NCBI RefSeq assembly: GCF_014204895.1
Contig: NZ_JACHMF010000001.1
Span: 4,402,001-4,466,000 of the forward strand
Direction of reading: 5' to 3'
DNA from: Paractinoplanes abujensis
Lineage (GTDB): Bacteria; Actinomycetota; Actinomycetes; Mycobacteriales; Micromonosporaceae
DNA length: 64,000 bases
Positions 43,561 to 63,470 of this stretch are shown here, piece after piece; the stretch's first letter is position 1, and the number at the start of each line of letters is the position of its first letter. The notes beneath the pieces were generated by a model. That model saw nothing but the letters and a program-made list of their open reading frames with translations, searched no databases and was not told the origin of the DNA. Made by a program: the position numbers and the translations under genes.

Positions 43561-43577
43561 GTTCCGGTCACCGGACC
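43561..43577. promoter_or_regulatory. IclR-type operator between aldehyde dehydrogenase and IclR genes
   Basis: GTTCCG-GTCAC-CGGACC is a 17-bp inverted repeat located between the divergent genes at 42013-43491 and 43683-44489. It matches sites at 48175, 59769, 59822, 63435 and 63454. Confidence 0.65.
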
Positions 43578-43682
43578 CGGCCCGAACGGGCGGAAATTAC
43601 TGTCTGCCCGGCAGCGGCAACCCTACGCGACACAGGGCTATCGTCGGGAAGGCAAGATCCACAGACGTGGAGGGAGCCGCCC

Positions 43683-44489
43683 GTGACCGACCTAGCTTTC
43701 CGCATCCCGCCCGACGTCGAGCTCGATGACGAGACCGGCACCCCGAAGTCCGTGCTGGGCAAGGCGCAGCTGCTGCTGGCCGCGTTCGGCGCCGGCGCCG
43801 TCCAGCTCCGGCTGACCGAGCTCAGCCGCCGCTCGGGGGTCCCGAAGGCCTCGGCCTACCGGCTCGCCCAGGAACTCGTCCAGTGGGGGCTGCTGGAACG
43901 GGTCGGCCAGAGCTACCAGCTGGGCCTGCGGGTCTTCGAGCTGGGCCAGCGGGTGCCGGTGGCGGCCATCCTGCGCCGCGTCTCCCGGCCCGCCCTGGTC
44001 GACCTGTACGCGGCCACCCGGGCCACGGTGCATCTGATCGTCCCCGACGGCACCCACGTGCTGTTCCTCGAGAAGATCGCGGGCGCGGCCAACGTGCTCA
44101 CCCACTCCGAGGTCGGCGGGCGGCTCCCGGCCAGCTGCTCGGCCTCGGGCAAGCTGTTCCTGGCGCTGCGCCCCGACGGGCGGGCCACGCTGGCCGAGCT
44201 GAGCCGGCACGAGCTGATGCGCCCGACCACGCGCAGCGTGCCCACGCTGGAGGCGCTCGGGGCGCAGCTGGCCGAGGTGCGCAAACGCGGGCACTCCGTC
44301 GAACTGGAGGAGATGCTGGTCGGGCACAGTTCGCTGGCCGTGCCGGTCGTCGACGCGTACGGGGAGATCTATGCCGCCGTGTCGATCACCATGCCCACGT
44401 CGCAACTGGTCGTGCCCCGCCTGCTGCCGATCGTGCAGGCCACGGCGGGGCTGATCCACCGGGCGGTCGAGGCGCGGACGGCGGCCTGA
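43683..44489 (+). CDS. IclR-family regulator (first)
   Basis: A 268-aa IclR-type regulator with an N-terminal winged helix (LTELSRRSGVPKASAYRLAQELVQWGLLER) and a C-terminal effector domain (HVLFLEKIAGAANVLTHSEVGGRLPASCSASGKLFLA, then SLAVPVVDAYGEIYAAVSIT). It is paralogous to the IclR at 62587-63393: both have an ELVQWGLLER segment and a SVLGK lead-in. GTG 43683 follows GGAGGGAG. It faces the aldehyde dehydrogenase operon across a shared operator and probably controls it and itself. The inducer is probably a catabolic intermediate. Confidence 0.93.
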   Translation: MTDLAFRIPPDVELDDETGTPKSVLGKAQLLLAAFGAGAVQLRLTELSRRSGVPKASAYRLAQELVQWGLLERVGQSYQLGLRVFELGQRVPVAAILRRVSRPALVDLYAATRATVHLIVPDGTHVLFLEKIAGAANVLTHSEVGGRLPASCSASGKLFLALRPDGRATLAELSRHELMRPTTRSVPTLEALGAQLAEVRKRGHSVELEEMLVGHSSLAVPVVDAYGEIYAAVSITMPTSQLVVPRLLPIVQATAGLIHRAVEARTAA

Positions 44490-45968
44490 TCAGACCAGCG
44501 GGCCGTGCGTGGTCTCCCACGGGATGGTCACGACGCGGCGGGTGCGGGCGCGCTCGTTGAGCCGGCGCACGACCAGCGCGACGGCCGGCACGACGAGCGC
44601 GCCGACGCCCACTCTGAGCCACCACCAGGGGCCGATGAGAAACGGCGACTTCCCTTCCCGTACGGCACCCGAGTCGATCGCGGCGTCGGCCAGGTCCAGG
44701 TAGTTGGTCTGCCCGGGCAGGGCCATCGCGGGCCCCGGCCGGTCCGCGCCGGGGGTCAGGGTCAGCAGCCGGGGCTCGTCGCCGAGGACGAAGACCAGGG
44801 CGCTGCCGTCCGGTCGCCAGCCCAGCCACTGGCTGCGATAGATCGTGCCGTCGACCGCCGGCAGGTCCGGGCCGCTCACCTCGCGGCCGGTGGCCGGGTC
44901 GAACCAGCGCGGCGGCCGGTCGTCCTGCTCGCGGACGGCCACGGCCCGGCCGTCGGGCGTCCACGCGCCCTTGCCCACCAGGACCCCGTCGAAGCCCAGA
45001 CCGAATGACGTGGGGCCGGCGCCGACCACCGTCAACCGGCCCTGGTTCGTGTATGCCAGCCGGGTGCCGTCCGGCGACCAGGCCGCGGACGTCTGGCCGG
45101 GCGCGGTGGCCAGATCGGTCGCGGCGCCGGTGGTCACGTCGACGATCCGCACCGTCCCGTCGTCGGTCACCAGCCGGCGCCCGTCCGGCGACCACGCCAA
45201 GGGGAAGCCGGGCAGCGGGCGTTCGGCCCCGGTGTCCAAGTCGATCAGCCGGTCGGCACGGCCAGGCCGGCGCCGTCCGGGGCGAGCAGCACCCCGTCGT
45301 CGACCAGGCCGGTGTGCACCTTGCGGTAGTCCTCTTTCGTCGCGCCGACCAGCCCGTACGTGTCGTGGTCGTCGAACCAGGGCCCGAACCGCGGACCGTA
45401 GCCCGAGAAGACCACCGACGCCGCGCCCAGCCCCGACACACCGCGAGCCCCGTACGCGGGCAGGCCCAGACGGTCGGGCAACGAGATGACGCCGCGGTCC
45501 GCCGCCGGGGTCGTCGCCGGCCGTGGCGCGAACGGGACGGCCAGCGCCAGCGCCGCCACGACCAGCGCCCACACCGCCGCCGTACGCCGGCGCCCCCGCC
45601 GGGCCGCGCGCAGGCTCCCCGCGCACGACCACCGCGCGCTGCTTGGGGCTGAGCGTGGCCAGCGCCCGGGCCAGGCTCAGCCGCAGGGCCGTGGCGCCGG
45701 CCGGGTCGTCCCGGGCCCGTTCCGGCGGCGCGCCCGTCAGGTGCTCGGGCACGCGGCGCCGCCGCCACCAGCTGACGTGCTGGTGATAGATGGCGCGGCG
45801 CAGGTACGCCTCGGGGTTGTCGTCGCGCACGCGCCGCCAATGCCGGTAGACGCTCGCCAGCGCGCTCTGCAGCAGGTCCTCGGCGAGCTGGTGGTCCCCG
45901 GTGAGCAGGTACGCGTGGCGCGACAACACCGGTGAGCGCTCCCGCACGAAGTCCCGGAAGTCGTCCAT
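44490..45968 (-). pseudogene. fused remnant: SigE-type sigma factor 5' part and beta-propeller membrane protein 3' part
   Basis: The first about 115 residues are a SigE-type sigma factor (FVRERSPVLSRHAYLLTGD, region 2, up to LSPKQRAVVV near 45624), but region 4 is missing. Sequence of a different gene follows in another frame: a membrane anchor (AAVWALVVAALALAV, about 45595-45530) and the start of a beta-propeller, ending at a stop near 45245. The first frame then resumes with that propeller (LAWSPDGRRLVTDDGTVR, AAWSPDGTRLAYTN) and a final TM helix. The simplest reading is a deletion joining a sigma gene to its downstream partner, plus a one-base frameshift near 45245. Neither gene is likely to be functional, unless the sequence contains errors. 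Confidence 0.75.
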
Positions 45969-46026
45969 CCCTCACCCCCTTCACCTGCCCTGACGACGGC
46001 CGGGTGACTGATGGCGGGGGCCGTGG

Positions 46027-48132
46027 TCAGAAGGTCAGCTTGTCCTCGGTCAGGAACGCGCGCAGCACGTTACCGGTGAGGATCGAGACGTCGTTGCGGC
46101 GGTCGTCGGCGAGCAGGGAGCCGCACCAGGCGATGCTGCCGGTGGAGAAGACCGCGCCGCCGTTGGGCTTGGGCACCAGCACCAGGTCGCAGCGGACCTT
46201 GTCGCTGGTCGTGCCGTCGTAACACCCGTCGGGCAGCTGCACCTCGATCGGGTCCAGCCCGTACGCCCGGGAGAAGCCCGTCGCCGTGGCCAGCACGATC
46301 GTGCCGTCGGGGGTGCCCAGCGCGCGGTCGGCCCGGTCGATCTCGACGCCGGCCGCGCCGTGCCCGTTCACCAGCGACGGGAAGTCGCCGATGGTCTCGG
46401 CGTTCTCGATCCCGGCGAAGACGAACGGCACCTTCGTGACCACGTCGTACGGGCGGTTGGTGTCGAAGCCCTGCGAGGCCATGCCCACGCCGAGCATCTT
46501 CTGCGGCGCCTTGCCGCGCAGCCGCCACAGCCCGCCCAGCTCGCCGGTGGTCGCGTGATGCCACTCGCCGGGCTCGGGCTGCCAGGCGCGGATGCCCGCC
46601 GTGCGCCGGATCTCGATGGTGTGCTCGCGCTCCGGGTCGATCGAGGTGACCCAGTAGAAGCCGTTGCCGCCCAGATACATGAGCCGGCCGCCCTGATCCA
46701 GGTACGTCTCGTAGGCGGTCATCATCGCGGTGGTCGGATACTCGGGGTGACTGCCGGTCAGGACCACACGGTAAGGGGCCAGCGCGGCCAGTCCCTCCCG
46801 GTGCACCTCCTCGTCGGTGATCACGTCGATGTCGTAGCCCTCCGCGTCGAGCCAGGCGATCAGGTGCAGGTCGGCGCTGAACTGGTGGGCCGAGGTCGCG
46901 CCGCCCGCCACGGCCGCCCAGCGGTGATCCGGCCGCACGTTGGGCAGGGGCTTCCGCGTGCTCGTGAAACACACGCCGGTGCCGTCGGTGTGCACGTCGT
47001 AGAGGCTGCGCAGGCCGTTCGTGAGCAGGTAGGTGTCGTGCTTGTTGCCACCGAACTCCGGGGGCTCACCGACCCCCACCCCGCGCAGGTAGTCGCGGGC
47101 GCCCGGGTCGGCCATCACGTGCTCGCAGCTGTACGCGAGGTAGCTGAACGTGGGCAACACGACGAGGGCGCTCTTGCGCGGATTGTCACCCGGCGTGACC
47201 ACGAACGGGACCGTGTCCTCGGTGCCGTCGGCTGCCGTGACGTGCACACCGTAGACACCACTGGGCAGATCCGCGGGCACCTGCAGCGTCAGGTCGTCGT
47301 GCCAGCCGGCGTCGTCGAGATCGTCGTCGTGGAAGTGGATCGCCTGGTAGGCCTCGGGCGCAAGCCGCGGATCCACGTCGTCGGCCGCGCCGTCGATGCC
47401 GAGACACGCGCGCAGCGGGAAGTTGACCGTCTCGGCGTGGAAGCCGGGGCCGACGCGGTTGGCGACCTGCCGCAGCGTCCGGCTGGGCCCGAAGTCCCAC
47501 TCCGCGATCAGGGCGTCGCCGGCGTGCAGCGTGGGCCGATCGATGCGGCCGTTGAAGTGGTTCTCCCCGGCGCCGTCGGCCGCGAACGTCACCGCCAGCG
47601 CCCGCGAACCCGCCACCGTCACGTCGACCGTCGTCGTCACGTCCGACAGCACCACACTCGCGGTCGGCCCGGTCACGGTCAGCGCGAGCCGATACCAGCG
47701 GCCGGTCACCACTTCGCCGGCCCGGGCCGACCCCTTCCCCGTACGGAGAAAGGCTTGCCCGTCATCGATGACAACCGACGCCACCAGCGTGTCACCGCTG
47801 GTCAGAGTCACGATCGTCTGCGGGTGGCCGGCTCCGGTGGCGAGCGTCGGCTGGAACGCCAACCGCAGGTCGAGGCGGCCCGCCGGGACCGGTGCCTCCG
47901 CCGTACGGGCGAAGGAACCGGCACGGATCGGCTGCACCCGGCCCGGGAAGCTCAGCCCGTCGAGCGCGGAGGGCACGGCTCGGATGTCGGCGCCCGGCCC
48001 GAGCGGATGCGCATCGCCGTTGATCAGCCGCACCAGCCGCGCGGTGAAGCCGGCCGCGGGCGTGCTGAACTTGGCGTGCACGGTGGCACCGGGCGCGTAG
48101 CTGAGCCGGTCGAGATACCCGATGATGTTCAT
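46027..48132 (-). CDS. N,N-dimethylformamidase large-subunit-like protein
   Basis: A 701-aa protein resembling the large subunit of N,N-dimethylformamidase. The start NIIGYLDRLSYAPGATVHAKF is typical, a LamG-like beta-sandwich occupies about residues 90-240, and the C-terminal catalytic part contains RVVLTGSHPEYPTT. The His and Glu of GSHPEY correspond to two ligands of the mononuclear iron centre reported for that enzyme. A tyrosine about 80 residues upstream (LYDVH) could be the third. The known enzyme also has a small subunit, and no such gene is seen here. It may hydrolyse another small amide. ATG 48132 is preferred. An IclR-type operator lies 43 bp upstream. Confidence 0.82.
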   Translation of the reverse strand: MNIIGYLDRLSYAPGATVHAKFSTPAAGFTARLVRLINGDAHPLGPGADIRAVPSALDGLSFPGRVQPIRAGSFARTAEAPVPAGRLDLRLAFQPTLATGAGHPQTIVTLTSGDTLVASVVIDDGQAFLRTGKGSARAGEVVTGRWYRLALTVTGPTASVVLSDVTTTVDVTVAGSRALAVTFAADGAGENHFNGRIDRPTLHAGDALIAEWDFGPSRTLRQVANRVGPGFHAETVNFPLRACLGIDGAADDVDPRLAPEAYQAIHFHDDDLDDAGWHDDLTLQVPADLPSGVYGVHVTAADGTEDTVPFVVTPGDNPRKSALVVLPTFSYLAYSCEHVMADPGARDYLRGVGVGEPPEFGGNKHDTYLLTNGLRSLYDVHTDGTGVCFTSTRKPLPNVRPDHRWAAVAGGATSAHQFSADLHLIAWLDAEGYDIDVITDEEVHREGLAALAPYRVVLTGSHPEYPTTAMMTAYETYLDQGGRLMYLGGNGFYWVTSIDPEREHTIEIRRTAGIRAWQPEPGEWHHATTGELGGLWRLRGKAPQKMLGVGMASQGFDTNRPYDVVTKVPFVFAGIENAETIGDFPSLVNGHGAAGVEIDRADRALGTPDGTIVLATATGFSRAYGLDPIEVQLPDGCYDGTTSDKVRCDLVLVPKPNGGAVFSTGSIAWCGSLLADDRRNDVSILTGNVLRAFLTEDKLTF

Positions 48133-48174
48133 CCCCGCACGATCGCAGCGCGACGACGGCCGCGCAGGCGCTCG

Positions 48175-48191
48175 GGTCCGGTCAACGGACC
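48175..48191. promoter_or_regulatory. IclR-type operator upstream of dimethylformamidase-like gene
   Basis: GGTCCG-GTCAA-CGGACC has perfect 6-bp arms around a 5-bp centre, 43 bp upstream of the ATG at 48132. It belongs to the same motif family as the sites flanking the IclR genes. Confidence 0.65.
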
Positions 48192-48266
48192 GCCTCGTCG
48201 GCACTCAGCGACAGCACCGCCCGGAGCCCGAACCCTCCGTCCGCCGCCGGTGGAGAAAACCTCCTT

Positions 48267-48335
48267 CCGGCGGCGGACCGCGGCGTGCGTGCCGGCCGAA
48301 CCGCCGCCCAGCACACAGACGTCGCGCCGGATCAC
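48267..48335 (-). pseudogene. 5' remnant of an FAD/NAD(P) flavoprotein gene
   Basis: Minus-strand codons read VIRRDVCVLGGGSAGTHAAV, the classic N-terminal dinucleotide-binding loop (GGGSAG) of a flavin monooxygenase or FAD oxidoreductase. The expected remainder is gone: after about 22 residues the frame becomes Arg/Gly-rich nonsense. It lies between the LysR gene and the dimethylformamidase-like gene, which suggests that an oxidoreductase gene was deleted here. Confidence 0.5.
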
Positions 48336-48388
48336 CCGCGGCTCGCCCGCCCCCGGCCACCAGCGGTGCGGCCCCGTCCTCTCGGACT

Positions 48389-49318: not shown

Positions 49319-49335
49319 CGGCTGAGTACAACTTC

Positions 49336-49352
49336 GACAACCACCGGTTGTC
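49336..49352. promoter_or_regulatory. palindrome in the LysR/membrane-protein divergent region
   Basis: GACAACC-ACC-GGTTGTC has perfect 7-bp arms. A further GGTTGTT half-site is at about 49366. It is 18 bp upstream of the LysR start and probably is its operator. Confidence 0.6.
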
Positions 49353-49407
49353 AATCCGGCTCCGCGGTTGTTGGACCACCGCCGGCCACCGGCCGTGTAC
49401 TGCTCTC

Positions 49408-49914: not shown

Positions 49915-49967
49915 GTCACCTATCGGCATGGGGATCGCGCGATAAATGCATCCCTTGTGCGTTGTCA

Positions 49968-49986: not shown

Positions 49987-50031
49987 CCGAACGACCCGGG
50001 CGTGACGCCGCCCGAGGTCGTGCTCGTGGGG

Positions 50032-51046: not shown

Positions 51047-52588
51047 TCAGGGCCGGTGGGGTGCCACCGCGTCGCTCCGCCATTCTCGCCAGTCGCCGGA
51101 GCGTTCGAGGACGCCGGCGGCCCGGTAGAGGGTCGCCTCGTCCCAATGGCGGCCGACCAGCATCAGGCCGGCGGGCAGCCCCTCGCTGAGGCCGCACGGC
51201 ACGGAGAGGGCGGGGTGGCCGGTGCAGTCGAAGGGCGCAGTGTTGACCACGGGGTCGAAGCCGGGGGCGGACATCTCGGCCCGGCTGGTGCCCACGGGTA
51301 GCGGCGGCGCGACGAACGGCACGGTGGGCAGCGCGAGCACGTCGACGTCGTTCAGGGCGGTGTCGTAGGCCTGCCGCGCGGCGCGGACGAGGTTCTGGGC
51401 CTTGGCGTAGTAGACGCCGCCGTAGACCTCGCGCAGGTAATGGCCCGCGATCAGGCCGGTCTTGATGGGCTCGGACAGCAGGTGGGCCCGGTGGCGCCAG
51501 GCCGAGTGGGCCCGCATCAGCGCGGTCGGGTTGAGGCCGGTGATGCCCGTCCAGGCGCCGTTGCCGTGCATGGCCACCTGAACGGTGCCCTCCAGGATGA
51601 TCGCCGCCCAGACGTTCATCATCGTGCGGTGCTCGGGCACCGACACCTCGACGACCGTGGCTCCGGCCGCGGCCAGCCGGTCGGCGGCCGACCGGACGAG
51701 CCGTTCGACGCCCGGCTCGGCCAGCGGCTGCCCGAAACCCTCGGTGAGCAGGCCGACGCGCAGGCCCTTGACACCGCCGGTCACCGCGCCGAGGTAGTCG
51801 CCTTTGCGGACGCCGACTTGGCGCGGGTCGAGCCCGTCGGGACCGGCCAGCACGTCGAGCAGCAGCGCGTTGTCGGCCACGGTGGCGGTCATCGGTCCGA
51901 CGTGGTCGATCGACGGGTCGACCGGCATGACACCCGTGTACGGCACGAGCCCGTGGGTCGGCTTGAGCCCGTAGATTCCGCAGTGGGCGGCGGGCACCCG
52001 GATGGAGCCGCCCTGGTCACCGCCCACGGCCATCGGCACCGCGCCCGAGGCGACCAGCACCGCGCTGCCCGACGAGGAGCCGCCGGCCGTGCGGGCCGGG
52101 TCCCACGGGTTGCGTACGGGCCCGTTCGCGCTGGTGTGGCTGCCCGCGCCGTAGCAGAAGTACTCGCAGTTCGCCTTGCCGGCCAGGTTTCCGCCCGCGT
52201 CGAGGATGCGGGTCACGATCGTGGCGTCGAAGTCGGGCGCGAAACCCTGCAACGTGGCCGATCCGGCGGTCATCGGCACCCCGGCCACGCCGACCGTGTC
52301 CTTGACGGCGATCCGATGCCCGGCCAGCGGCCCGGATGCGGCGCCGGCGATGTCGGTGCGGACGGCCCAGCCGTTGTACGGGTCGTCGGCCGGGGCCGGA
52401 CGGTGGCCCGGGGTGCGCGGATACCGCACCGGGGGCAGCGGCTCGGCCAGGGCGTCGAGCCCGCCCAGCAGCTCGATGATGGGCGCGATGTCGGCCCGTA
52501 CGGCGGCGACGCCGGCGTCGGTCAGCGGCAGCCCCAGGTGGTCGGCGGCGGCCCGGACGTGCCGGTCGGACGGTCCGGTGATAGTCAT
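51047..52588 (-). CDS. amidase-signature hydrolase (second amidase)
   Basis: A 513-aa amidase of the signature family. The catalytic Lys is in HRIAVKDTVGV and the Ser-cisSer-Lys motif in AGGSSSGSAVLVASG. GGDQGGSIRVPAAHCGIYGLKPTHG is the conserved core. The closest layout is to the branched, longer amidases that act on amides, ureas or carbamates, but the substrate cannot be told. ATG 52588 overlaps the previous stop by 4 bp (ATGA), so it is coupled to the first amidase. It is the last gene of the operon, followed by a strong hairpin. Confidence 0.92.
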   Translation of the reverse strand: MTITGPSDRHVRAAADHLGLPLTDAGVAAVRADIAPIIELLGGLDALAEPLPPVRYPRTPGHRPAPADDPYNGWAVRTDIAGAASGPLAGHRIAVKDTVGVAGVPMTAGSATLQGFAPDFDATIVTRILDAGGNLAGKANCEYFCYGAGSHTSANGPVRNPWDPARTAGGSSSGSAVLVASGAVPMAVGGDQGGSIRVPAAHCGIYGLKPTHGLVPYTGVMPVDPSIDHVGPMTATVADNALLLDVLAGPDGLDPRQVGVRKGDYLGAVTGGVKGLRVGLLTEGFGQPLAEPGVERLVRSAADRLAAAGATVVEVSVPEHRTMMNVWAAIILEGTVQVAMHGNGAWTGITGLNPTALMRAHSAWRHRAHLLSEPIKTGLIAGHYLREVYGGVYYAKAQNLVRAARQAYDTALNDVDVLALPTVPFVAPPLPVGTSRAEMSAPGFDPVVNTAPFDCTGHPALSVPCGLSEGLPAGLMLVGRHWDEATLYRAAGVLERSGDWREWRSDAVAPHRP

Positions 52589-55011: not shown

Positions 55012-55049
55012 GACGGTTCCTCCGAGGGGTGAGGGCACGAGCGCGAGCT

Positions 55050-56978
55050 TTAGAGAGACTTGACGAGGGCCGAGGCGGTCCGCTCGGCCAGCGCCATGAC
55101 GGTGATCATGGGGTTGACGCCGGGCGCGGTCGGCAACGCGGACGCGTCCCCGATCCAGACGCCCGCGACGTCGTGAAGCTGTCCCCAGCCGTCGGCCACC
55201 GAGGTGGCCGGGTCGGCGCCGAGCCGGCAGGAGCCCATCTGATGGGCGGAGAAAGCGGTGTGGTCGTTGATCGGCGAGTCGGTCAGCTGCTGCAGATAGG
55301 CGTCGAAGTCCTCACCGCTGCGCCAGCGCTGGTCGCTCCAGTGGAACGTGAAGATCTCGGTGGCGCCGGCCTCGCGGTGCATCCGGGCCAGTTCGGTGTG
55401 CGCCCGTACGGCGATGCGGTGATCGACGTCGTCGTCGAGGTTCCAGTGCACGGCGGCCCGCCCGTCGGCGTCGAGGTAGACCTCGCCGCTGCCGTGGTCG
55501 TGCGAAACCCCGTGCCAGGTCGCGAAGTAGGGCAGCCTGCGCAGCTGGTCGCGGGTCGTGCGGCCGTCGGTGAACGGGGACTGCCCGGCCCACGTGCCGG
55601 GGTTGAGAGCGAGGCTTTCGACCAGGAAACCGCCGCCGTCGACGACCCGGGTCAGGTCGAAGCTGACGGCGGACTGGATCTGACCGTGCCACGCCTCGAC
55701 CGGCTCCTCGTAGACGCCGGTGACGATCCAGGCCGGGTGCAGCGTGAGGTTCTTGCCGACCGCGGGGCCGCCGATGCCGGAGCGCAGCAGCACCGCGGGC
55801 GATTCGATGCCACCGGCCGCGACGACGACGTGGCCCGCCGAGACGGACAGCGACGTGGAACCGTCGACGGTGGCCAGCACACCCGTGGCGCGCCCGTCCG
55901 CGGTGACGATCCGGTCGACGTGCGCACCGACCACGACCCGCGCGCCCGCGTCCACGGCGTCCTGCAGGTACGTGTGCAGGGTGGAGCGCTTCTTGCCCTG
56001 CTGACAGCCGGCGTTGCAGTAGCCGCACATCGTCGCGTCGTCGTCCGGCGCGGCGTTGCGGGGCAGCCGTTCGTGCCGGTACCCCAGCGAGGCCAGGCCG
56101 GTGATCATGGCCCGGGTGTTGGCGTTGTACTGGGTGGCGTCGGTGTTGACCCCGATCCGGTCCCACACCATGTCGGTGAACTTGTCGAAGTCGGGTCCGT
56201 CCAGACCTTCGAGCCCGTACGAGGTCCAGAGCTCGCGGATGTGCTGCGGCGTGCGCAGGCACACCATCGAGTTGATCACCGTGCCGCCGCCCAGGGTCGC
56301 GCCGGCCAGCACGCCCATCTGCCCCGAGGACGACCACAGCGAGCCGCCCCGCAGGAACATCGTGGCCGCGCCGATCGAGTCGATCTGCCGGAAGTCGGCC
56401 TCGTTGCGATACTGCGCGGCCTCCAGGACGAGCACCGACAGCCCGGCCTGGGCCGCGCGGGCCGCGATGATCGCGCCGCCCGCACCCGAACCGATCACCA
56501 CGACGTCGGCCTCCAGCTGGGCCTCGCCGGCGGGCAGCGACACGAGCGGGAAGTTCTTGGGCGCGGCCGGGGGCTTGGTGGCCGGGCCGGGATAGCCCAG
56601 CGCCGGCCACGCCGGGTTGGTCCCGGTCTCGTCCACGGCTCCGACCAGCGTCGCGAGGGTCATGGCCTTGAGCTGCCGTACGCCGAGACGCAGCCGCATG
56701 GACTCGTCGGCCACCGCCAGCAGCGTCGCCGTACGGGAATCGAGGTCGGCCGTCACGAAGTCCGGCCCGAGCCGATCCAGCAGCTCGGCGATGGCCCCGC
56801 GAGTAAGCACGTCGAGCGACCCGACCGCGCCGGCCACGGCGACGTCGATGCCCCGGGCTCGGGCGCCGTCGCGGTAGAACGCAGCAGTGGCCTCGTCGAC
56901 GCCTTCAGGGGCGCTCAGGGACGGCGCGAACGTGTCGCAAACCGCCTGGATGATCGCCTGGTCCTGCACTTGCGGCAT
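55050..56978 (-). CDS. GMC-family FAD oxidoreductase with N-terminal extension (first)
   Basis: A 642-aa flavoprotein. The first about 150 residues are an extra helical domain (QVQDQAIIQAVCDTFAPSLS...) similar to the gluconate dehydrogenase subunit 3 type extension. The FAD motif GSGAGGAIIAARAAQAG, a Cys-rich loop MCGYCNAGCQQGKKRST and the GMC C-terminus with His (SAHQMGSCRLG) and DASALPTAPGVNPM follow. It oxidises an alcohol group to an aldehyde or ketone. The electron acceptor is unknown. ATG 56978 has GGAGG upstream. It is paralogous to the protein at 60705-62606 and sits between the permease and binding-protein genes. Confidence 0.92.
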   Translation of the reverse strand: MPQVQDQAIIQAVCDTFAPSLSAPEGVDEATAAFYRDGARARGIDVAVAGAVGSLDVLTRGAIAELLDRLGPDFVTADLDSRTATLLAVADESMRLRLGVRQLKAMTLATLVGAVDETGTNPAWPALGYPGPATKPPAAPKNFPLVSLPAGEAQLEADVVVIGSGAGGAIIAARAAQAGLSVLVLEAAQYRNEADFRQIDSIGAATMFLRGGSLWSSSGQMGVLAGATLGGGTVINSMVCLRTPQHIRELWTSYGLEGLDGPDFDKFTDMVWDRIGVNTDATQYNANTRAMITGLASLGYRHERLPRNAAPDDDATMCGYCNAGCQQGKKRSTLHTYLQDAVDAGARVVVGAHVDRIVTADGRATGVLATVDGSTSLSVSAGHVVVAAGGIESPAVLLRSGIGGPAVGKNLTLHPAWIVTGVYEEPVEAWHGQIQSAVSFDLTRVVDGGGFLVESLALNPGTWAGQSPFTDGRTTRDQLRRLPYFATWHGVSHDHGSGEVYLDADGRAAVHWNLDDDVDHRIAVRAHTELARMHREAGATEIFTFHWSDQRWRSGEDFDAYLQQLTDSPINDHTAFSAHQMGSCRLGADPATSVADGWGQLHDVAGVWIGDASALPTAPGVNPMITVMALAERTASALVKSL

Positions 56979-57020: not shown

Positions 57021-57112
57021 CCGGCGGTGGGGCATTGGTGCGTGTCGCGCAAATCCGAAAGAAGCGATTCGGGCGGATGAAGAAAGGGCGGAAGGGGCAG
57101 GTCGGCGGCGGT

Positions 57113-58162
57113 TCAGGATGAGGCTGGGGTCCTGCCCCGATTGAACCGCAACCAGCCCCGGTCGCGGGCCACTCCGAGCGCGACCGCGACGATCAGGACG
57201 ACGCCGTTGACCGTGCCGCGCCAGAACGTCGACACGTCGCTCAACGTCAGACCGTTCTGGATCACGCCGAGGAACAGGACGCCGAGGACCGTTCCGCCCA
57301 CGCCGCCGTCGCCGCCGGTGTAGGCCGTGCCCCCGATCAGCACCGCGGCCACGACCGTGAGCAGCAGCGTGGAGTCGATGCCGGGGCTGGCGCCGGTGAG
57401 CCGGCCGACCTGGATCAGGCTGGCCACGGCGGCGGCCAGGCCGGCGATCAGGAACACGCTGAGCGTCGTCCGGGCCACGTTGATGCCGTTGAGCCGGGCC
57501 GCCTCGCGGTTGGAGCCGAGCGCGTAGACGCCGCGCCCGAAGGTCGTGTAACGCAGCACCAGGGCGGCCACCACGACCAGGACCACGTCGAAGATCAGCA
57601 GGTAGGGAAGCCCGGCCACCCGGCCGTTGACCAGGTTGTAGATCGGCTGGAAGCCCTCGATCGAGAACACGTTGATCGTCTTGCCCTGCGACATCACCAG
57701 CGCCGCGCTCTCGAAGATCGACAGCGTGCCCAGCGTGACGACCAGGAAGGAGATCTTCACGTACGAGATCAGGACACCGTTGACGATGCCCAGGAGCAGA
57801 CCGACGGCCAGCGCACCGGCGACCGCGACCCAGGCGCTCATCCCGTGTTGCAGCAGCATCCCGTACGACATGCCGGTGACCGCGGCCGCCGAGGCGGTGG
57901 ACAGGTCGAGCCCGCCCGAGATGATCACGAAGGTCGCGCCGACCGCGAGCACCAGCACCACGCTGTTGCTGGCCACGATGTTGGTGATGTTGCCCCAGGT
58001 CATGAAGATCGGCTGGGTGATCGACAGGTAGACGACCAGCAGGATCAGGCCGGCCAGCACACCGGTGGTCTTGCCCGACGCCCGCCACACGGTGGTGAGC
58101 AAGCCGGGCGACGAGGGCGCCTCGACCTTCGCCGGCGGACGTATTTGCGTGTCCTGACTCAT
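57113..58162 (-). CDS. ABC transporter permease (RbsC-like)
   Basis: A 349-aa membrane protein of the RbsC/BPD_transp_2 family with about nine helices. The landmarks FVIISGGLDLSTASAAAVTG and TTFGRGVYALGSNREAARLNGI are intact. It forms the translocation channel for the sugar-type importer. The ATG overlaps the ATPase stop by four bases. Downstream is a 134-bp gap before the GMC gene. Confidence 0.94.
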   Translation of the reverse strand: MSQDTQIRPPAKVEAPSSPGLLTTVWRASGKTTGVLAGLILLVVYLSITQPIFMTWGNITNIVASNSVVLVLAVGATFVIISGGLDLSTASAAAVTGMSYGMLLQHGMSAWVAVAGALAVGLLLGIVNGVLISYVKISFLVVTLGTLSIFESAALVMSQGKTINVFSIEGFQPIYNLVNGRVAGLPYLLIFDVVLVVVAALVLRYTTFGRGVYALGSNREAARLNGINVARTTLSVFLIAGLAAAVASLIQVGRLTGASPGIDSTLLLTVVAAVLIGGTAYTGGDGGVGGTVLGVLFLGVIQNGLTLSDVSTFWRGTVNGVVLIVAVALGVARDRGWLRFNRGRTPASS

Positions 58163-59676
58163 GAAGGCTCCTCGGAGTGGACGTGCCCGCTGACCGCGAT
58201 CGCGTTCAGCACCTCTTCCTGCAGCTGCTCGCCGCTGACCTCGCCGCGGACCGCGCCCTGGAAACAGACCAGGACCCGGTCGGCCAGGCCGATCAGCTCG
58301 GGCAGCTCGGAACTGATGATCACGACGGCGGCGCCGCTCTCGGTCAGCTTCTGCAACAGGGCGTAGATCTGGCTCTTGGAGCCGACGTCGACGCCGCGAG
58401 TGGGCTCGCTGAGCACGTAGACCGGGCAGTCCAGCGCGAAGATGCGTCCGAGGATCGCCTTCTGCTGGTTGCCGCCGGAGAGCTGCGTGATCAGCTTGGC
58501 CGGGGACGAGGTCTTCACGCCGTACTCGGCGATCGCCTCCCGGACCCGGCGTTTTTCCGTACGGGTGGGCACCACGCCCAGCTTCGACAGCTTGGGCAGC
58601 CACGTCAGGGTCATGTTGTGGGCGACGCTGCGGGTCGGCAGCAGGGCCGCGCGTTTGCGGTCGTCGGGCACCAGGCCGATGCCGGCGCCGAGAGCGCGGC
58701 GCGGGTCGCCCAGCGCGACGGCCGTGCCGTTGACCCGGACGTCGCCGGTGGCCGCGATGGCCCCGCCCAGGGCCATGCCGAGCTGGGCCTTGCCCGAGCC
58801 GACGAGCCCGGCGATGCCGACGATCTCGCCGCTGCGCACCTCGAACGAGGTGGGGGCGAGCGCGCCGTCGGCCGAGGCCAGATCGCGCACCTGCAGCACC
58901 ACGTCGCCGGGCACGCAGTCGCGGGAGCCGTAGTAGTCGTTGAGCTCGCGGCCGACCATCATCCGCACCAGCTGGGACTCGGGCGTCGAGGGCAGCGGGA
59001 CCGTGCCGACCAGTTTGCCGTCGCGCAGCACCGCGGCCCGGCTCGCCGTCGCGTACAGCTCGGGCATCCGGTGCGAGATCATCAGCACCGCCACGCCGCG
59101 CTCGGCCTGGTCCCGTACGAGTTCCAGCAGCCGCTCGGTGGCGTGCTCGGACAGCGAGCTGGTGGCCTCGTCGAGGATCAGCAGCCGGGCCTTGGAGGAG
59201 ACCGCGCGGGCGATCTCGACCTCCTGCTGCAGCTCCACCGACAGGTCACCCACCTTGGCGTCCACGTCGACGTGCACGTCCAGCGCGGCCAGTTCCTCGC
59301 GGGCCCGGCGGCGCGCGGTCGCCCAGTCGATCACCCGGCCGCGGCGGGGCAGCCGGCCCATGAAGACGTTCTCGGCCACGGTCAGCTGCGGGGCCAGGGT
59401 CAGCTCCTGGCTGATCATCACGATGCCCAGCTGGAGCGCGGTGGCCGGGTTGGCGATCACCGTCTCCACGCCGTCGACCAGCACGGTCCCGCCGTCCGGC
59501 TGCTCGGCCCCGCCGATGATCTTCGACAGGGTCGACTTGCCGGAGCCGTTCTCGCCGGTCAGGGCCACGATCTCGCCGGGACTGACGGTCAGGCTGGCGT
59601 TGTCCAGGGCGAGCACGCCCGGATAGCGCTTCGAGACGCCGCGTACCTCGACCAGAGGCGCCGCACTTGCGTTCAC
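58159..59676 (-). CDS. ABC transporter ATPase with two nucleotide-binding domains (RbsA-like)
   Basis: A 505-aa tandem ATPase. The first half has Walker A GENGSGKST and Walker B LLILDEATSSLS. The second half has the signature QLSGGNQQKA and a degenerate Walker A (GLVGSGKAQL). This architecture is typical of carbohydrate/autoinducer importers with RbsC permeases. It is the first gene of the leftward operon. GTG 59676 follows GGGAGG seven bases upstream. Its promoter region holds two or more IclR-type operators. Confidence 0.94.
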   Translation of the reverse strand: MNASAAPLVEVRGVSKRYPGVLALDNASLTVSPGEIVALTGENGSGKSTLSKIIGGAEQPDGGTVLVDGVETVIANPATALQLGIVMISQELTLAPQLTVAENVFMGRLPRRGRVIDWATARRRAREELAALDVHVDVDAKVGDLSVELQQEVEIARAVSSKARLLILDEATSSLSEHATERLLELVRDQAERGVAVLMISHRMPELYATASRAAVLRDGKLVGTVPLPSTPESQLVRMMVGRELNDYYGSRDCVPGDVVLQVRDLASADGALAPTSFEVRSGEIVGIAGLVGSGKAQLGMALGGAIAATGDVRVNGTAVALGDPRRALGAGIGLVPDDRKRAALLPTRSVAHNMTLTWLPKLSKLGVVPTRTEKRRVREAIAEYGVKTSSPAKLITQLSGGNQQKAILGRIFALDCPVYVLSEPTRGVDVGSKSQIYALLQKLTESGAAVVIISSELPELIGLADRVLVCFQGAVRGEVSGEQLQEEVLNAIAVSGHVHSEEPS

Positions 59677-59768
59677 CTGCGTACCTCCCTGGGGGTTTGT
59701 GAGTTCACCCACCGGCAACCGGATTGGCGCTCACCTTGGCACCGGCGCGTTACCGGCCTAAGCGACCT

Positions 59769-59838
59769 GTTCCGCTGAACGGACTGTGGCCGGAACGCGA
59801 CGTCCGGAGATTTGGAGCAGGAGTCCGGTGAACGGACC
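59769..59838. promoter_or_regulatory. two IclR-type operators in the divergent promoter region
   Basis: GTTCCG-CTGAA-CGGACT (59769-59785) and AGTCCG-GTGAA-CGGACC (59822-59838) lie between the leftward importer operon and the rightward hydrolase-GMC operon. Extra half-sites CGGAAC (59791) and GTCCGG (59802) lie between. The sites have the same shape as those at 43561, 48175 and 63435-63470. Confidence 0.7.
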
Positions 59839-59910
59839 GTCAGGAAGGCGCGCGTAACCGCGGAGGCGTGTTGTGGAGACCCAGACCACACTTCGACGGG
59901 AGAACAGCCG

Positions 59911-60708
59911 ATGACCCGTGGGTACGCGGCCACACCGTACGGCCAGATGCACTATGCCGAGCTGGGCGAGGGTCCGGTTCTGCTGCTCCTCCACCAGACA
60001 CCCCGCTCGTACGACGAGTTCCGCGAGGTGCAGCCGCTGCTGGCCGCGGGCCACCGGGTGATCGCCATGGACATGCGCGGGTTCGGGCTGAGCGCGCCGC
60101 TGCCGGCCCCGCAGACGATCGAGGCCATCGCCGAGGGCGCGTTCGCGCTGCTGGACGCGCTCGGCGTCGAGCGGGCCGCGGTGCTCGGGCATCACACCGG
60201 CGGCGCGGTCGCCATCGAGATGGCCGCGGCCGCGCCGGACCGGATCGGAGCGCTCGTGTTGTCGTCGGCGCCGTGGACCGATGCCGCCTACCGGGAGGGC
60301 CACGCCGGCGGTCCGGGGGTCGACGAGGCCGAGACGGCCGCGGACGGCACGCACCTGACCCAGCTGTGGGCGCTGCGGCAGCCGTACTACCCGGCCGGGC
60401 GGCCCGACCTGCTCGACCGCTTCGTCCGCGACGCGCTCGCGCCCGGGGTCGATCCGGCCGAGGGGCACATGGCCTGCGCCCGCTACGTCATGGAGGACCG
60501 GATCGGCCTGGTCACCGCGCCCGTGCTGCTGATCGGCGCGGCCGAGGACCCGTTCGCCCTGCCCGACGTCGAGCGCCTGCAGAAACACCTGACCAACGCC
60601 GTACGGGTCGAGACCACCGTGATCGAGGGCGGCACCATCCCGCTCATGGAGCAGAAGGCCCCCGACGTGGCGGCCGTGACCCTGAAGTTCCTCGGAGAGC
60701 ACGCATGA
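59911..60708 (+). CDS. alpha/beta-hydrolase-fold protein lacking the usual Ser-His triad
   Basis: A 265-aa alpha/beta hydrolase fold with LLLLHQTPRSYDEFREVQPLL at the oxyanion loop and VLGHHTGGAVAIEMAA at the elbow. The nucleophile position is His instead of Ser (GHHTGG), and the usual GGHxP histidine position is Thr (EGGTIPLME). Similar HQTPRS/GHHTG proteins form a known subfamily that is not a standard esterase. The reaction could be a lyase, decarboxylase or unusual hydrolase. ATG 59911 follows GGGAGAACAGCCG. Its stop overlaps the second GMC gene by 4 bp, so the two are coupled. Confidence 0.82.
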   Translation: MTRGYAATPYGQMHYAELGEGPVLLLLHQTPRSYDEFREVQPLLAAGHRVIAMDMRGFGLSAPLPAPQTIEAIAEGAFALLDALGVERAAVLGHHTGGAVAIEMAAAAPDRIGALVLSSAPWTDAAYREGHAGGPGVDEAETAADGTHLTQLWALRQPYYPAGRPDLLDRFVRDALAPGVDPAEGHMACARYVMEDRIGLVTAPVLLIGAAEDPFALPDVERLQKHLTNAVRVETTVIEGGTIPLMEQKAPDVAAVTLKFLGEHA

Positions 60709-62606
60709 ACCCGGAAATTGTGAAAGCCGTCTGCGACACCCTGGTCCCCCGTGTGCCGGCCGCCGCCGGCGACAGTCCCGAAGCGGCCACCTTGCTCGGC
60801 CTGAGCGCATCGGACCTGGGCATCGACGCGATCGCCGCTGCCGTGATCCCGATGCTCGCCCCGCACGTACAAGACAAGATCACGACGACGCTGGCCGCGC
60901 TGGGCGACGACTTCGCCGCGGCCGGCGACGAGGAGCGAGCTCTTCGCTGGCGGTCCGCCCTCGAGAACGCCGGCACCTACCCGGGCGCGATCATCCTGCA
61001 GAGCACCGTGCTCGCGATGTTCTACACCGGCCCCGACGCCGACGCCAAGAACCCGACCTGGCCCGCGATCGGCTACCCGGGCCCGCTGCTGCCCACGCCG
61101 AGCGAGGCCGAGTTCCCCAAGACGCTGCGCACCATCACCGCGGACGACGACCTGACCGCCGACGCCGTCGTGATCGGCTCCGGCGCGGGCGGCGGTGTGG
61201 CCGCGGCCCGCCTGGCCGAGGCCGGGCTGCGGGTCCTCGTCCTGGAGAAGGGTTCCTACCGCAACGAGCCCGATCTGCCGCAGCTGGAGGCGCTGTCGTT
61301 CCCCAACCTCTATCTGGGCGGCGGTTTCCTCTGGTCGACCAGCGCGTCCGTCGGGTTGCTGGCGGGCTCGACGGTCGGCGGCGGCACCACTGTCAACTCG
61401 ATGGCCTGCCTGCCCACGCCCGGCTACGTGGTCGACGAGTGGCGCGAGCGCGGCATGAAGGGGCTCGACGACTTCGACGAGCACGTGCGCGCGGTCATGG
61501 AGCGGATCAACGCGAAACCGTCGAACACCGTGCACAATCGCGTCAACGAGATCCTGATCCGCGGTTTCGAGGCGGCCGGGCTGGCCTGGGCCACGCTGGC
61601 CCGCAACGCCAAGGACGACGAGTCGCGCTACTGCGGCGAGTGCAACGCGGGCTGCCTGGTCGGGTGCAAGCAGTCGACCATGAAGACGTTCCTGCAGGAC
61701 GCCAGCGACCACGGCGCCCGCCTGCTGCCGGACTGCGACGTGCGCGAGATCCTGCACGAGGACGGGCGGGCCTCCGGCGTACGGGCAACGATCGGCGATC
61801 GCGAGGTCGAGCTGCACGCGCCGATCGTCGTCGTCGCCGCGGGTGCCCTGGCCAGCCCGGCGCTGCTGCTGGCGTCGGGGATCGGCGGCCCCGAAGCCGG
61901 CCAGAACTTGCACGTGCATCCCTCGTACTTCATGAGCGGGGTGTTCGACTCCGACGTGCGCGGCTGGGAGGGGCAGATCCTGACCAGCGTCAGCCACAAC
62001 TACGAGCACGTGGCCGGCGAGCACGGTTTCGTCGTGGAGGCGGCCCCGATGGGTCTGGGTTTCTGGACGGCGCTCACCCCGTGGCAGGGCGGCGAGTCGC
62101 ACAAGCGCGAACAGCTGCGGCTGCGGCACGTGTCGGGTGTGTGGGGTTTCGCGCGGGACCACGGCTCGGGCCGCGTCGAGCTGGGCCCGGACGGCATGCC
62201 GCTGATCCACTGGGACCTGAACGACGACGTCGATCTGGAGGTCGTGCGGCGTTGCCACGTCGAACTGGCGAAGTTGTTGCGCGCGGCGGGCGCACGCGAG
62301 ATCTTCACGTTCCTGCCGGGTGATCCGCGATGGCGGGAGGGAGAGGACTTCCAGGCGTTCCTCGGCACCCTGGCCGCGCTGGAGGGGCCGGACGTCCTGA
62401 CGTTGTCGGCGCACCAGTCGGGCACCTGCGCCACGGGCACGGTCGTGGACGGCGAGGGTCAGCTCTTCGATGTCCGGGGCGTCTATGTGGCCGACGCTTC
62501 GGCGCTGCCCACCGCGCCCGGCGTCAACCCGATGGTCTCGATCGAGGCGTACGCGGCCAAGACCGCGGGGCACATCGTGGCGGCGCTCAGATCTCCTGCG
62601 CGCTGA
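60705..62606 (+). CDS. GMC-family FAD oxidoreductase with N-terminal extension (second)
   Basis: A 633-aa flavoprotein paralogous to the one at 55050-56978. It has the N-terminal helical extension (PEIVKAVCDTLVPRVP...), FAD motif GSGAGGGVAAARLAEAG, Cys loop YCGECNAGCLVGCKQST with four or five Cys, and GMC end SAHQSGTCATG plus DASALPTAPGVNPM. It probably oxidises a related alcohol. The substrate specificity of the two copies may differ because the region between the FAD motif and the Cys loop diverges. ATG 60705 is coupled to the hydrolase stop (ATGA). Its end overlaps the IclR gene by 20 bp. Confidence 0.92.
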   Translation: MNPEIVKAVCDTLVPRVPAAAGDSPEAATLLGLSASDLGIDAIAAAVIPMLAPHVQDKITTTLAALGDDFAAAGDEERALRWRSALENAGTYPGAIILQSTVLAMFYTGPDADAKNPTWPAIGYPGPLLPTPSEAEFPKTLRTITADDDLTADAVVIGSGAGGGVAAARLAEAGLRVLVLEKGSYRNEPDLPQLEALSFPNLYLGGGFLWSTSASVGLLAGSTVGGGTTVNSMACLPTPGYVVDEWRERGMKGLDDFDEHVRAVMERINAKPSNTVHNRVNEILIRGFEAAGLAWATLARNAKDDESRYCGECNAGCLVGCKQSTMKTFLQDASDHGARLLPDCDVREILHEDGRASGVRATIGDREVELHAPIVVVAAGALASPALLLASGIGGPEAGQNLHVHPSYFMSGVFDSDVRGWEGQILTSVSHNYEHVAGEHGFVVEAAPMGLGFWTALTPWQGGESHKREQLRLRHVSGVWGFARDHGSGRVELGPDGMPLIHWDLNDDVDLEVVRRCHVELAKLLRAAGAREIFTFLPGDPRWREGEDFQAFLGTLAALEGPDVLTLSAHQSGTCATGTVVDGEGQLFDVRGVYVADASALPTAPGVNPMVSIEAYAAKTAGHIVAALRSPAR

Positions 62607-63393
62607 GCAGCTTCGTCATCCGCCGGCCGACCAGGTTGAGCAGGCCGACGTAACGATCGACCTTGGCCCGCGTCGTCGGGGCGGTCACCGAGAGGGCCGC
62701 CACGACGGCGCCGGTCGCGCCGGTGAGCGGGATGGCCACGCTCATGTAACCGATCCGGGTCTGCTCGAACTCGGCCACGAAGCCCTGCTCGCGGGCCTTC
62801 TGCAGCTCCTGGGCGAGCAGGCCGGGGGCCACCGTGGTGCGCGGCGTGACCCGGGTCAGCGGGGCGGTCATCACCTCGTCGAGCAGGTGCCGCGAGCCGA
62901 ACGCGAGCAGCGCCTTGCCGGTCGCCGTGCAGTGCAGCGGCATCCGCCCGGCCACGCGCGAGGGCCGGCTGATCTGGGCGTGCTCCCCCGACACCTTGTC
63001 CAGGTAGAGCACTTCGAGGCCGTCGGCCACGGCCAGGTGCGCGGTCTCGTGGGTGGCCTGCACCAGATCGATCATCAGCGGGCGGGCCAGGTCGCGCAGG
63101 ATCCGCTGGCGGGGCACGCGCTGGCCGATCTCGAAGAGCCGCATGCCGAGCCGGTACTCGCCGTTGCGGCGCTCCAGCAGCCCCCACTGCACGAGCTCCT
63201 GGCTGAGCCGGTGCACCGACGCCTTCGCGAGGCCGGTGCGCCGGGCCAGTTCGCTGAGGCTGAGCGTCTCGTCGTCGAGGCCGAACACCTCGAGGATGCG
63301 GCGCACCTTGCCGAGCACGCTGTTGCTGTCGGGGGCGGGATGAGGGTCGCGAGGGTCGGGCTGAAACAGGCAGTTCGCTGCGGGGGCCTCCAT
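62587..63393 (-). CDS. IclR-family regulator (second)
   Basis: A 268-aa IclR-type regulator. LSELARRTGLAKASVHRLSQELVQWGLLER is the winged helix, and EVLYLDKVSGEHAQISRPSRVAGRMPLHCTATGKALLA begins the effector domain. The start ATG 63393 or GTG 63396 is followed by a short unordered lead. Two tandem operator copies lie about 40-80 bp upstream (63435-63470), and similar sites precede the importer, amidase and dimethylformamidase-like genes, so it is the best candidate for the regulon controller. It is convergent with the second GMC gene. Confidence 0.93.
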   Translation of the reverse strand: MEAPAANCLFQPDPRDPHPAPDSNSVLGKVRRILEVFGLDDETLSLSELARRTGLAKASVHRLSQELVQWGLLERRNGEYRLGMRLFEIGQRVPRQRILRDLARPLMIDLVQATHETAHLAVADGLEVLYLDKVSGEHAQISRPSRVAGRMPLHCTATGKALLAFGSRHLLDEVMTAPLTRVTPRTTVAPGLLAQELQKAREQGFVAEFEQTRIGYMSVAIPLTGATGAVVAALSVTAPTTRAKVDRYVGLLNLVGRRMTKLLSAQEI

Positions 63394-63434
63394 CACCTGA
63401 ATCTCGTCGCCCGCGTCACACTTATCAACGAAAC

Positions 63435-63470
63435 GGTCCGGCCAGCGGAACACGTCCCGCCAGCCGGACC
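63435..63470. promoter_or_regulatory. tandem IclR-type operators upstream of the second IclR gene
   Basis: GGTCCG-GCCAG-CGGAAC (63435-63451) and GTCCCG-CCAGC-CGGACC (63454-63470) have centres 19 bp apart, just upstream of the leftward IclR gene. This fits autoregulation by two IclR dimers on one face of the helix. Confidence 0.7.

Follow-up and report, generated by a model that had tools for sequence, protein, structure and literature searches.

Repeats lying in the promoters of a group of catabolic genes, within a 64,000-nucleotide stretch of Paractinoplanes abujensis DNA (the window), are probably operators of the IclR-family regulator IclR2, through which it would control a regulon for aromatic meta-cleavage; a rough probability for this reading is 0.72. 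The genes look like a set for taking up an aromatic compound and degrading it by meta-cleavage, the substrate possibly carrying an amide or ring nitrogen, and the likeliest mode of control would be repression that is lifted by a pathway compound. An earlier note on this DNA had proposed a candidate regulon linking these scattered genes, a proposal that is supported by the conservation of the sites and by their confinement to promoters in related genomes.

In the proposed mechanism an IclR2 dimer would occupy each 17-bp palindrome, and at the IclR2 and Rieske promoters, where boxes lie 18–19 bp apart, two dimers would be placed on one face of the DNA, as a tetramer would need. Besides its own gene, IclR2 would target two operons, importer-GMC-amidase and hydrolase-GMC, as well as the dimethylformamidase-like gene, the aldehyde dehydrogenase (ALDH)/IclR1 pair and the Rieske oxygenase/extradiol dioxygenase/hydrolase operon next to it. 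A second aldehyde dehydrogenase is probably also a target, and IclR1 would be either a target or a second reader. Under such a scheme the Rieske/extradiol pathway would share a regulon with the two amidases, the sugar-type importer, the dimethylformamidase-like protein and both GMC oxidoreductases, all of which are therefore predicted to act on one aromatic substrate.

Sequence and placement of the repeats

All six 17-mers described earlier are present in the window (Table 1), in promoters of the genes originally named, with their centres at −50 to −114 from the start codons. In five the palindrome is strong, with half-sites TCCG/CGGA about a 5-bp centre; the box at 63454 is a weaker tandem element whose left half, GTCCCG, is imperfect. 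The sites at 59769 and 59822 each depart at one end base from the original pattern GKYCCG-N5-CGGAMC, in which the length of the centre is right but its letters were left free, while in fact they tend to STSAS. A candidate second tandem box before the ALDH/IclR1 pair (43580-43596) was discarded, its matrix score being −12.9 bits; among the nine genomes discussed below only G019 has a tandem box above 12.5 bits in this promoter (18.1 bits). We infer the operon limits from gene order.

Table 1 Candidate operators and genes of the cluster, with positions in the window. Figures in brackets give the distance of the site centre from the start codon.
Feature	Coordinates	Strand	Context or sequence	Score or domain evidence
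Operator	43561..43577		GTTCCGGTCACCGGACC; between divergent aldehyde dehydrogenase (−78) and IclR1 (−114) genes	24.8 bits
Operator	48175..48191		GGTCCGGTCAACGGACC; upstream of dimethylformamidase-like gene (−51)	23.6 bits
Operator	59769..59785		GTTCCGCTGAACGGACT; importer side of divergent promoter (importer ATPase, −101)	22.1 bits
Operator	59822..59838		AGTCCGGTGAACGGACC; hydrolase side of divergent promoter (hydrolase, −81)	22.1 bits
Operator	63435..63451		GGTCCGGCCAGCGGAAC; upstream of IclR2 (−50)	20.8 bits
Weaker tandem box	63454..63470		GTCCCGCCAGCCGGACC; 19 bp from 63435 (IclR2, −69)	11.2 bits
Aldehyde dehydrogenase	42013..43491	-		PF00171, 512 bits
IclR1	43683..44489	+	IclR-family regulator	PF09339, 47.8 bits (cut-off 22); PF01614, 103.1 bits (cut-off 24)
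Dimethylformamidase-like protein	46027..48132	-		PF20254 DMFA2_C, 303 bits
Amidase AMD2	51047..52588	-	scanned as 51047-52606	PF01425; NF005565 over cut-off
Amidase AMD1	52585..53982	-		PF01425
ABC importer substrate-binding protein	53986..55011	-	sugar type; scanned as 53986-55038	PF13407
GMC oxidoreductase 2	55050..56978	-		PF00732, PF05199
ABC importer permease	57113..58162	-		PF02653
ABC importer ATPase	58159..59676	-	head of importer operon	PF00005, two stretches
Alpha/beta hydrolase	59911..60708	+		PF00561
GMC oxidoreductase 1	60705..62606	+		PF00732, PF05199
IclR2	62587..63393	-	IclR-family regulator	PF09339, 53.3 bits (cut-off 22); PF01614, 112 bits (cut-off 24)
Quinone-oxidoreductase-like protein	63479..64000	-	last gene of Rieske/extradiol operon	PF08240, PF13602

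Among solved proteins GMC oxidoreductase 1 has a single relative within 1e-10, a GMC oxidoreductase described as inactivating chloramphenicol; the match, at 59 bits, is too weak for a substrate to be assigned from it.

Number of matches and the possibility of chance

One alternative is that the repeats are chance palindromes of a G+C-rich genome, and counting matches does nothing to discourage it. Genome-wide, GKYCCGN5CGGAMC is not enriched by count: the exact pattern gives 23 + 21 strand-hits in the 9.33-Mb genome and 31 + 35 in the reversed control, so that with a count at or below control it was rejected as too loose for a genome scan. Within the window, the loose pattern with up to one mismatch gives 23 strand-hits where 14.4 are expected, and at least 23 were reached in 6 of 100 shuffles. 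A symmetric version, RKTCCGN5CGGAMY, occurs exactly at 13 places in the genome (24 in the reversed control), and with one mismatch it too shows no enrichment (406 places; control, 668).

What speaks against chance is where the matches fall. Five of the 13 exact places lie within this 19.9 kb, every one in a promoter, where roughly 0.03 would be expected, although no fair p-value can be attached to this since the pattern was derived from these sites. The repeats are thus enriched by position, not by number of matches. Four of the eight exact matches elsewhere are inside coding-like ORFs (that at 5947360 counts as such only with the longest start) and one is in a tRNA gene; the match at 4286571 precedes a hydratase gene and overlaps the end of the IclR paralog L108, and the remaining two are at 5852855 and 7381335. 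Conservation is the better test, and the preservation of sites in up to nine genomes, together with the sites found in promoters that were held back from the matrix, already contradicts the chance reading, which we regard as highly improbable.

Conservation in related genomes

A weight matrix was built from 19 typed sites in eight relatives. Some of its training rows are letter-identical to window sites, and independent evidence comes only from the promoters left out of training, namely those with the Rieske, second-ALDH and G001-amidase sites. The matrix ranks the five strong sites first to fifth in the window (20.8–24.8 bits), followed by 63454 at 11.2 bits; the next place scores 10.4 bits, and the maximum in the reversed window is 12.6 bits. 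It was applied to nine Paractinoplanes/Actinoplanes genomes selected by possession of an IclR2 ortholog, a site being any match above 12.5 bits within 260 nt upstream of a gene; this line was the analyst's choice, and four matches exceed it in 470.7 kb of reversed sequence.

Relatives that keep the genes also keep the sites. These were found upstream of IclR2 in 9/9 cases, the importer ATPase in 6/6, the dimethylformamidase-like gene in 6/6, the aldehyde dehydrogenase in 6/6 and the hydrolase in 8/9 (the hydrolase of G030, which adjoins a run of N, has none within 260 nt), while none of 68 operon-internal genes in the nine genomes has one. In G001, where the amidases do not adjoin the importer, they have their own site at 18.6 bits. 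The near-absence from coding sequence expected of true operators is also seen: above 17 bits there are 48 matches in 14.9 kb of upstream zones and none in 169.6 kb of mapped genes in the nine clusters, nor any in the 470.7 kb of reversed sequence. This tally covers mapped genes and their upstream zones, with 286 kb of unmapped cluster sequence falling outside the classification, and strong sites do occur in gene-unmapped sequence (e.g. 24.8 bits in G030 and 23.6 bits in G051).

Column by column, four of the five strong sites surpass every other window of their own spacer. Seventeen of 17 columns are invariant at 59769 (six genomes; equalled by 0/147 other windows), 14 of 17 at 43561 (five genomes; 0/142) and at 48175 (five aligned genomes; 0/79), and 11 of 17 at 63435 (0/38). 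The site at 59822 is no better conserved than its surroundings, with 12 of 17 columns invariant in six genomes and 26 of 147 other windows reaching that figure. At the IclR2 promoter, a partner box 18–19 bp away and scoring above 12.5 bits is present in G007, G028, G001 and G030 and in none of G000, G038, G019, G051 and G014.

Extent of the regulon

The regulon is not confined to the 20 kb suggested at the outset and continues past 63.47 kb, since the Rieske/extradiol promoter also has sites. Judged from these, the regulon would include the Rieske/extradiol operon, which starts 6.3 kb past IclR2, runs some 5.7 kb beyond the end of the window and adjoins IclR2 in 8/9 genomes; in G051 IclR2 and the hydrolase are present without an adjoining Rieske operon. 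Among the left-out promoters, sites precede the Rieske oxygenase in 8/8 cases and its divergent reductase in 8/8, and the Rieske promoter (genome positions 4471756-4471810) has tandem boxes 19 bp apart. The second aldehyde dehydrogenase (so named from a 40–41% match to ALDH) is probably a further member, having a site in 5/5 cases, weak at 14.0 bits in each; in G001 this site and the end of the amidase match overlap, and another ALDH relative in G038 has no site.

The upper pathway for carbazole consists of the Rieske oxygenase CarAa, a class III extradiol dioxygenase and a meta-cleavage hydrolase. The operon here resembles it, by sequence relation only: the best solved relative of the Rieske protein is carbazole 1,9a-dioxygenase (CarAa, 155.6 bits), and a LigB-type dioxygenase and HsaD/BphD-like hydrolases are encoded in the same operon. 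Additions relative to the carbazole-type pathway are an M20 deacylase-like gene, two hydrolases, the GMC oxidoreductases and the sugar-type importer. The best model for the extradiol gene, NF009909 (MhpB-type 3-carboxyethylcatechol 2,3-dioxygenase), gives 183.2 bits, below its cut-off of 286.

Which regulator reads the operator

An IclR-type regulator very probably binds the palindrome. An operator of another factor, such as the LysR-type gene at 48396-49322 (LysR-like as judged from its sequence) or one encoded elsewhere, seems a distant prospect: that gene adjoins the 48175 site, but it is found in only two of the nine cluster regions, in neither of which it has an upstream site, and IclR2 is common to all nine (which were, of course, chosen by its presence). 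The form of the operator is moreover that published for IclR proteins (PMC8222616).

As between the two IclR proteins, IclR2 is the likelier reader, because the operators persist in four genomes that have no IclR1 ortholog. In these four of the nine (at E <= 1e-60) the IclR2 site is still there, and one of them, G001, retains the ALDH site as GTTCCGGTCACCGAACC. The recognition helix of IclR2, GLAKASVHRL, is identical in 9/9 orthologs. A site precedes each of the two IclR genes, as originally noted, but reading by both proteins does not follow; IclR1 may instead be one of the targets.

It is nonetheless conceivable, if doubtful, that both IclR proteins recognise these operators, either as competing dimers or in mixed oligomers, the regulon then integrating two signals. 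Each gene has a site before it; the helices are alike, GVPKASAYRL in IclR1 sharing K28, A29, S30 and R33 with that of IclR2 (numbering from the analyst's overlay on Table 5 of PMC8222616); of the 13 other IclR proteins compared with IclR2, taken from 38 HTH matches, IclR1 has the HTH most similar to its own (55% identity); and every one of the nine regions encodes, besides IclR2, another IclR protein of its subfamily. Set against this, the helices differ at positions 27 (Pro/Ala) and 32 (Tyr/His), which that source links to specificity, the closest relative of IclR1 among those compared is L106 (50%) and not IclR2 (42%), and the operators are still present where an IclR1 ortholog is lacking. 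No site lies within 260 nt upstream of the second IclR gene in either G030 or G014.

A more speculative extension, which we consider rather unlikely, is that two IclR clades share one operator code in a split aromatic regulon, with IclR2 constant and the operators staying in place while the second IclR is exchanged. The exchanged partner might, tentatively, be IclR1, an L106-type protein or an IclR2-like paralog according to species, and the code could perhaps reach a lower meta-pathway operon through the site at 4286571, about 159 kb before the operator of IclR1 and beside L108. Species that have IclR1 and species that lack it form a natural series in which to ask how one operator code is divided between paralogous regulators, and the operator set can be used directly in binding tests.

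Relation to known systems

Systems of this kind are already known, and this regulon seems to add a new example; a literature search found no match for the operator half-sites, nor for an IclR regulator with Rieske/extradiol genes in Actinoplanes. Suvorova and Gelfand (2021, PMC8222616) give the operator of IclR group 1 as GKTYCRYW3-4RYGRAMC, with tandem boxes 18–22 nt between centres in 94 of 181 orthologous groups, so that these are common but not required. The present sites agree in being 17-bp odd palindromes with GKTCCG/CGGAMC halves in promoters, in having tandem boxes 18–19 bp apart, and in targets of aromatic metabolism and transport; the half-sites GKTYCR...YGRAMC are fully matched at 43561, 48175 and 63435 and missed at one end base at 59769 and 59822. 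In contrast to the A+T-rich middle of that group, YW3R, the centres here (GTCAC, GTCAA, CTGAA, GTGAA and GCCAG) are richer in G+C. The tandem spacing is seen at IclR2 (19 bp, the second box being weak in the window) and at the Rieske promoter, but is absent from the importer, dimethylformamidase-like and ALDH promoters of the window, and the boxes of the importer/hydrolase promoter are 48–70 bp apart rather than 18–22.

The best NCBIfam match of both proteins is PcaR/PcaU/PobR (TIGR02431), a family of aromatic catabolism, although IclR1 and IclR2 (115.0 and 140.9 bits) are below its cut-off of 284.75 and the targets here are of meta-cleavage type. A parallel also exists in Sphingobium, which belongs to another phylum than this soil actinobacterium. 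There, PheR is likewise an IclR regulator before an aromatic-degradation operon (for phenanthrene), a repressor whose repression is lifted by substrate, but its protected region is 44 bp with a core GCAACG, and the part of its description used here includes no multi-operon palindrome set of the present sort (PMC13273656).

Occurrence in other genomes

With no more than six candidates scored in each genome, IclR1 orthologs were found in 1/397 genomes of the order and IclR2 orthologs in 2/397, and across the class IclR2 orthologs in 4/394, the source genome being included each time. A protein collection holds 867 relatives of IclR2 at 1e-50 or better, and among the 120 listed many are from other actinobacteria, some of these on contigs equal in length to ones that carry extradiol relatives. 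The IclR2-Rieske-extradiol module recurs in part in three genomes of other families, with sites of 12.6–24.2 bits before Rieske or reductase genes; in the 300 bp preceding the IclR2 homolog there is none above 12.5 bits.

The sequence GGACCGCTSAGCGGAMC, a pattern picked after its sites had been seen, occurs in 7/9 genomes that have IclR2, lying outside the cluster in G030, and in 3/58 that lack it; around these last three places (L151-L153) there is no relative of IclR1, IclR2 or L108 at 1e-12, and the surroundings of L153 contain ABC-transporter relatives only. Relatives of IclR2 are also carried by 21 plasmid records, and on two Rhodococcus plasmids the IclR gene (about 47%) adjoins genes for a hydratase-family protein, an acetaldehyde dehydrogenase and an aldolase.

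Sites and genes in the window

The genome comprises 9.33 Mb, of which the window is bases 4402001-4466000, and all six inverted repeats claimed in the earlier note are indeed present at their positions; its gene calls likewise agree with the family assignments for the genes that it named in the window. These include an aldehyde dehydrogenase (ALDH), two IclR regulators, a dimethylformamidase-like protein, a sugar-type ABC importer with a GMC oxidoreductase and two amidases, and an alpha/beta hydrolase followed by a second GMC oxidoreductase. GMC1 carries about 150 residues N-terminal of its FAD domain, and among solved proteins it has only one relative at E 1e-10 or better (59 bits), a GMC oxidoreductase described as inactivating chloramphenicol. 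In another gene, a sigma-70 region 2 domain is fused to a WD40-like beta-propeller repeat; the gene's match in the relative G028 is split into three pieces.

Coordinates of the features discussed
Feature	Numbering	Position	Strand
17-bp repeats, strong	window	43561, 48175, 59769, 59822, 63435	
17-bp repeat	window	63454	
IclR1	window	43683-44489	+
IclR2	window	62587-63393	-
Sigma-70/WD40-like gene	window	44490-45968	
GMC1	window	60705-62606	
Second conserved block	window	59717-59762	
Rieske promoter boxes	genome	4471775, 4471794	
Rieske promoter box, weaker (9.4 bits)	genome	4471756	
Altered-half sites near L106	G000:C1	2892199, 2894456	
L135	G000:C1	4285847-4288322	

Number and placement of the sites

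The degenerate motif proposed earlier is not over-represented in a genome scan. The exact symmetric pattern occurs at 13 places in the whole genome versus 24 for the reversed control, i.e. without excess by count. Five of the 13 fall in a 19.9-kb stretch, and each of these five is centred no more than about 115 bp from a start codon it could serve; it is placement, not number, that sets these matches apart. With a weight matrix derived from relatives, the five strong sites hold ranks 1-5 of the window and also outscore the other eight places in the genome (20.8-24.8 bits versus 17.7 for the next). The pattern including its centre, GKTCCGSTSASCGGAMC, is found with at most one mismatch at five genome places, four of them in the cluster (three within the window, one in the Rieske promoter past it); at up to two mismatches, 61 places versus 48 in the control represent no clear excess. 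Searches that allow mismatches may undercount slightly, because two exact matches (G000:C1:5852855 and 5947360) are absent from those that the one-mismatch search gave as exact.

Conservation in the genus

Among 67 genus genomes, IclR2 (E <= 1e-60) is present in nine, IclR1 (E <= 1e-60) in five and the dimethylformamidase-like gene (E <= 1e-100) in six, all of these five and six being among the nine; four of the relatives carrying the same IclR2 gene are Paractinoplanes and Actinoplanes species. Analysis of the surroundings of each of the nine clusters, 41-92 kb per stretch, showed that relatives keep the sites with the genes: a site precedes every mapped shared operon head except the G030 hydrolase, and none was found upstream of the 68 operon-internal genes. 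Promoter alignments place four of the five strong sites above every other 17-column window of their own spacer in conservation; the fifth, site 59822, does not stand out from its surroundings, 26 of 147 other spacer windows reaching its level. Spacing of the importer/hydrolase boxes varies (53 bp in the present genome, G000, 70 bp in G007, 48 bp in G019) while the boxes themselves are kept.

The same spacer holds a second strongly conserved block, distinct from the operator (ACCGGATTG..GCTCACC.TG.CACCGG...GTTACC...CTAAG), which may contain the promoter of the importer or a site for some other factor. Beside the hydrolase gene on G030 contig C58 (L052, L053) lies a run, CTGTCTCTTATACACATCTC, followed by N, which resembles a sequencing adaptor; the HSAD1 and extradiol matches there are each in two parts, and together these features probably reflect assembly damage.

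Promoters past the window

Upstream of IclR2, and running towards it, is an operon encoding a Rieske oxygenase, a LigB-type extradiol dioxygenase, an M20 deacylase-like protein, two HsaD/BphD-like hydrolases and a quinone-oxidoreductase-like protein, which shares its promoter with a divergent thioredoxin-reductase-like flavoprotein gene. It adjoins IclR2 in eight of nine genomes, and in all eight its promoter, whose sites were all left out of matrix training, has between one and three boxes that score above 12.5 bits. The ninth, G051, may have an extradiol relative (80%) elsewhere in its genome. A second aldehyde dehydrogenase gene, 26 kb beyond IclR2 in G000, has a 14.0-bit site upstream in each of the five genomes in which it was located, and the G001 amidases, which lie apart from the importer, have a site of their own.

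Which regulator reads the sites

IclR2, by which the nine cluster regions were selected, occurs in all of them. No IclR1 ortholog was found at 1e-60 in G001, G014, G030 or G051, all of which have operators, so that IclR1 is not required for site retention; in G001 the ALDH operator persists with one base changed. IclR1 may nevertheless read the sites too, since its recognition helix is close to that of IclR2 and a further IclR of that subfamily, albeit from differing clades, is present in all nine regions. Second IclR genes of the L106 type have upstream sites (12.5-18.0 bits) in G001, G019 and G051, and none was found upstream of the second IclR genes of G030 and G014. Of the paralogs compared, L106 itself is the one nearest to IclR1. 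Near it lie two near-operator sites with an altered half (GTGGTCC/GTGGGCC), which may be a divergent form of that operator code; a search of L136, which holds 2894456, gave two matches, no more than chance (97 of 200 shuffles reach as many).

Mechanism, substrate and precedent

IclR proteins are able to bind palindromes of this kind as dimers, and as tetramers where two stand in tandem (PMC8222616); the operator type, tandem spacing and link to aromatic genes are already described for the family. This regulon was not found in searches of openly licensed PubMed Central papers, and the view that it is a further, itself new, case of that operator type is well supported. Site centres lie at -50 to -118 relative to start codons, so that both repression and activation are possible; judging from known IclR regulators that control aromatic breakdown, repression relieved by a pathway compound would be the likeliest mode. 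To go by its Rieske and extradiol enzymes, the pathway would act on an aromatic substrate. The Rieske protein resembles carbazole and 2-oxoquinoline oxygenases, a likeness that, with the amidases and dimethylformamidase-like protein, may point to a nitrogen-containing ring or an amide.

Distant genomes and lower-pathway genes

Parts of the module recur in three genomes of other families (G226, G707, G755), with hydratase and acetaldehyde dehydrogenase relatives nearby in the first two and a hydratase relative in G755; sites there precede Rieske or reductase genes or, in G226, a hydratase gene. The lower-pathway genes of G000 lie at 4.286 Mb behind an IclR paralog, L108, with an exact symmetric match, GTTCCGCATAACGGAAC. 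At this locus (L135), L108 stands directly before the 2-keto-4-pentenoate hydratase and acetaldehyde dehydrogenase genes, with this exact operator-like palindrome between.
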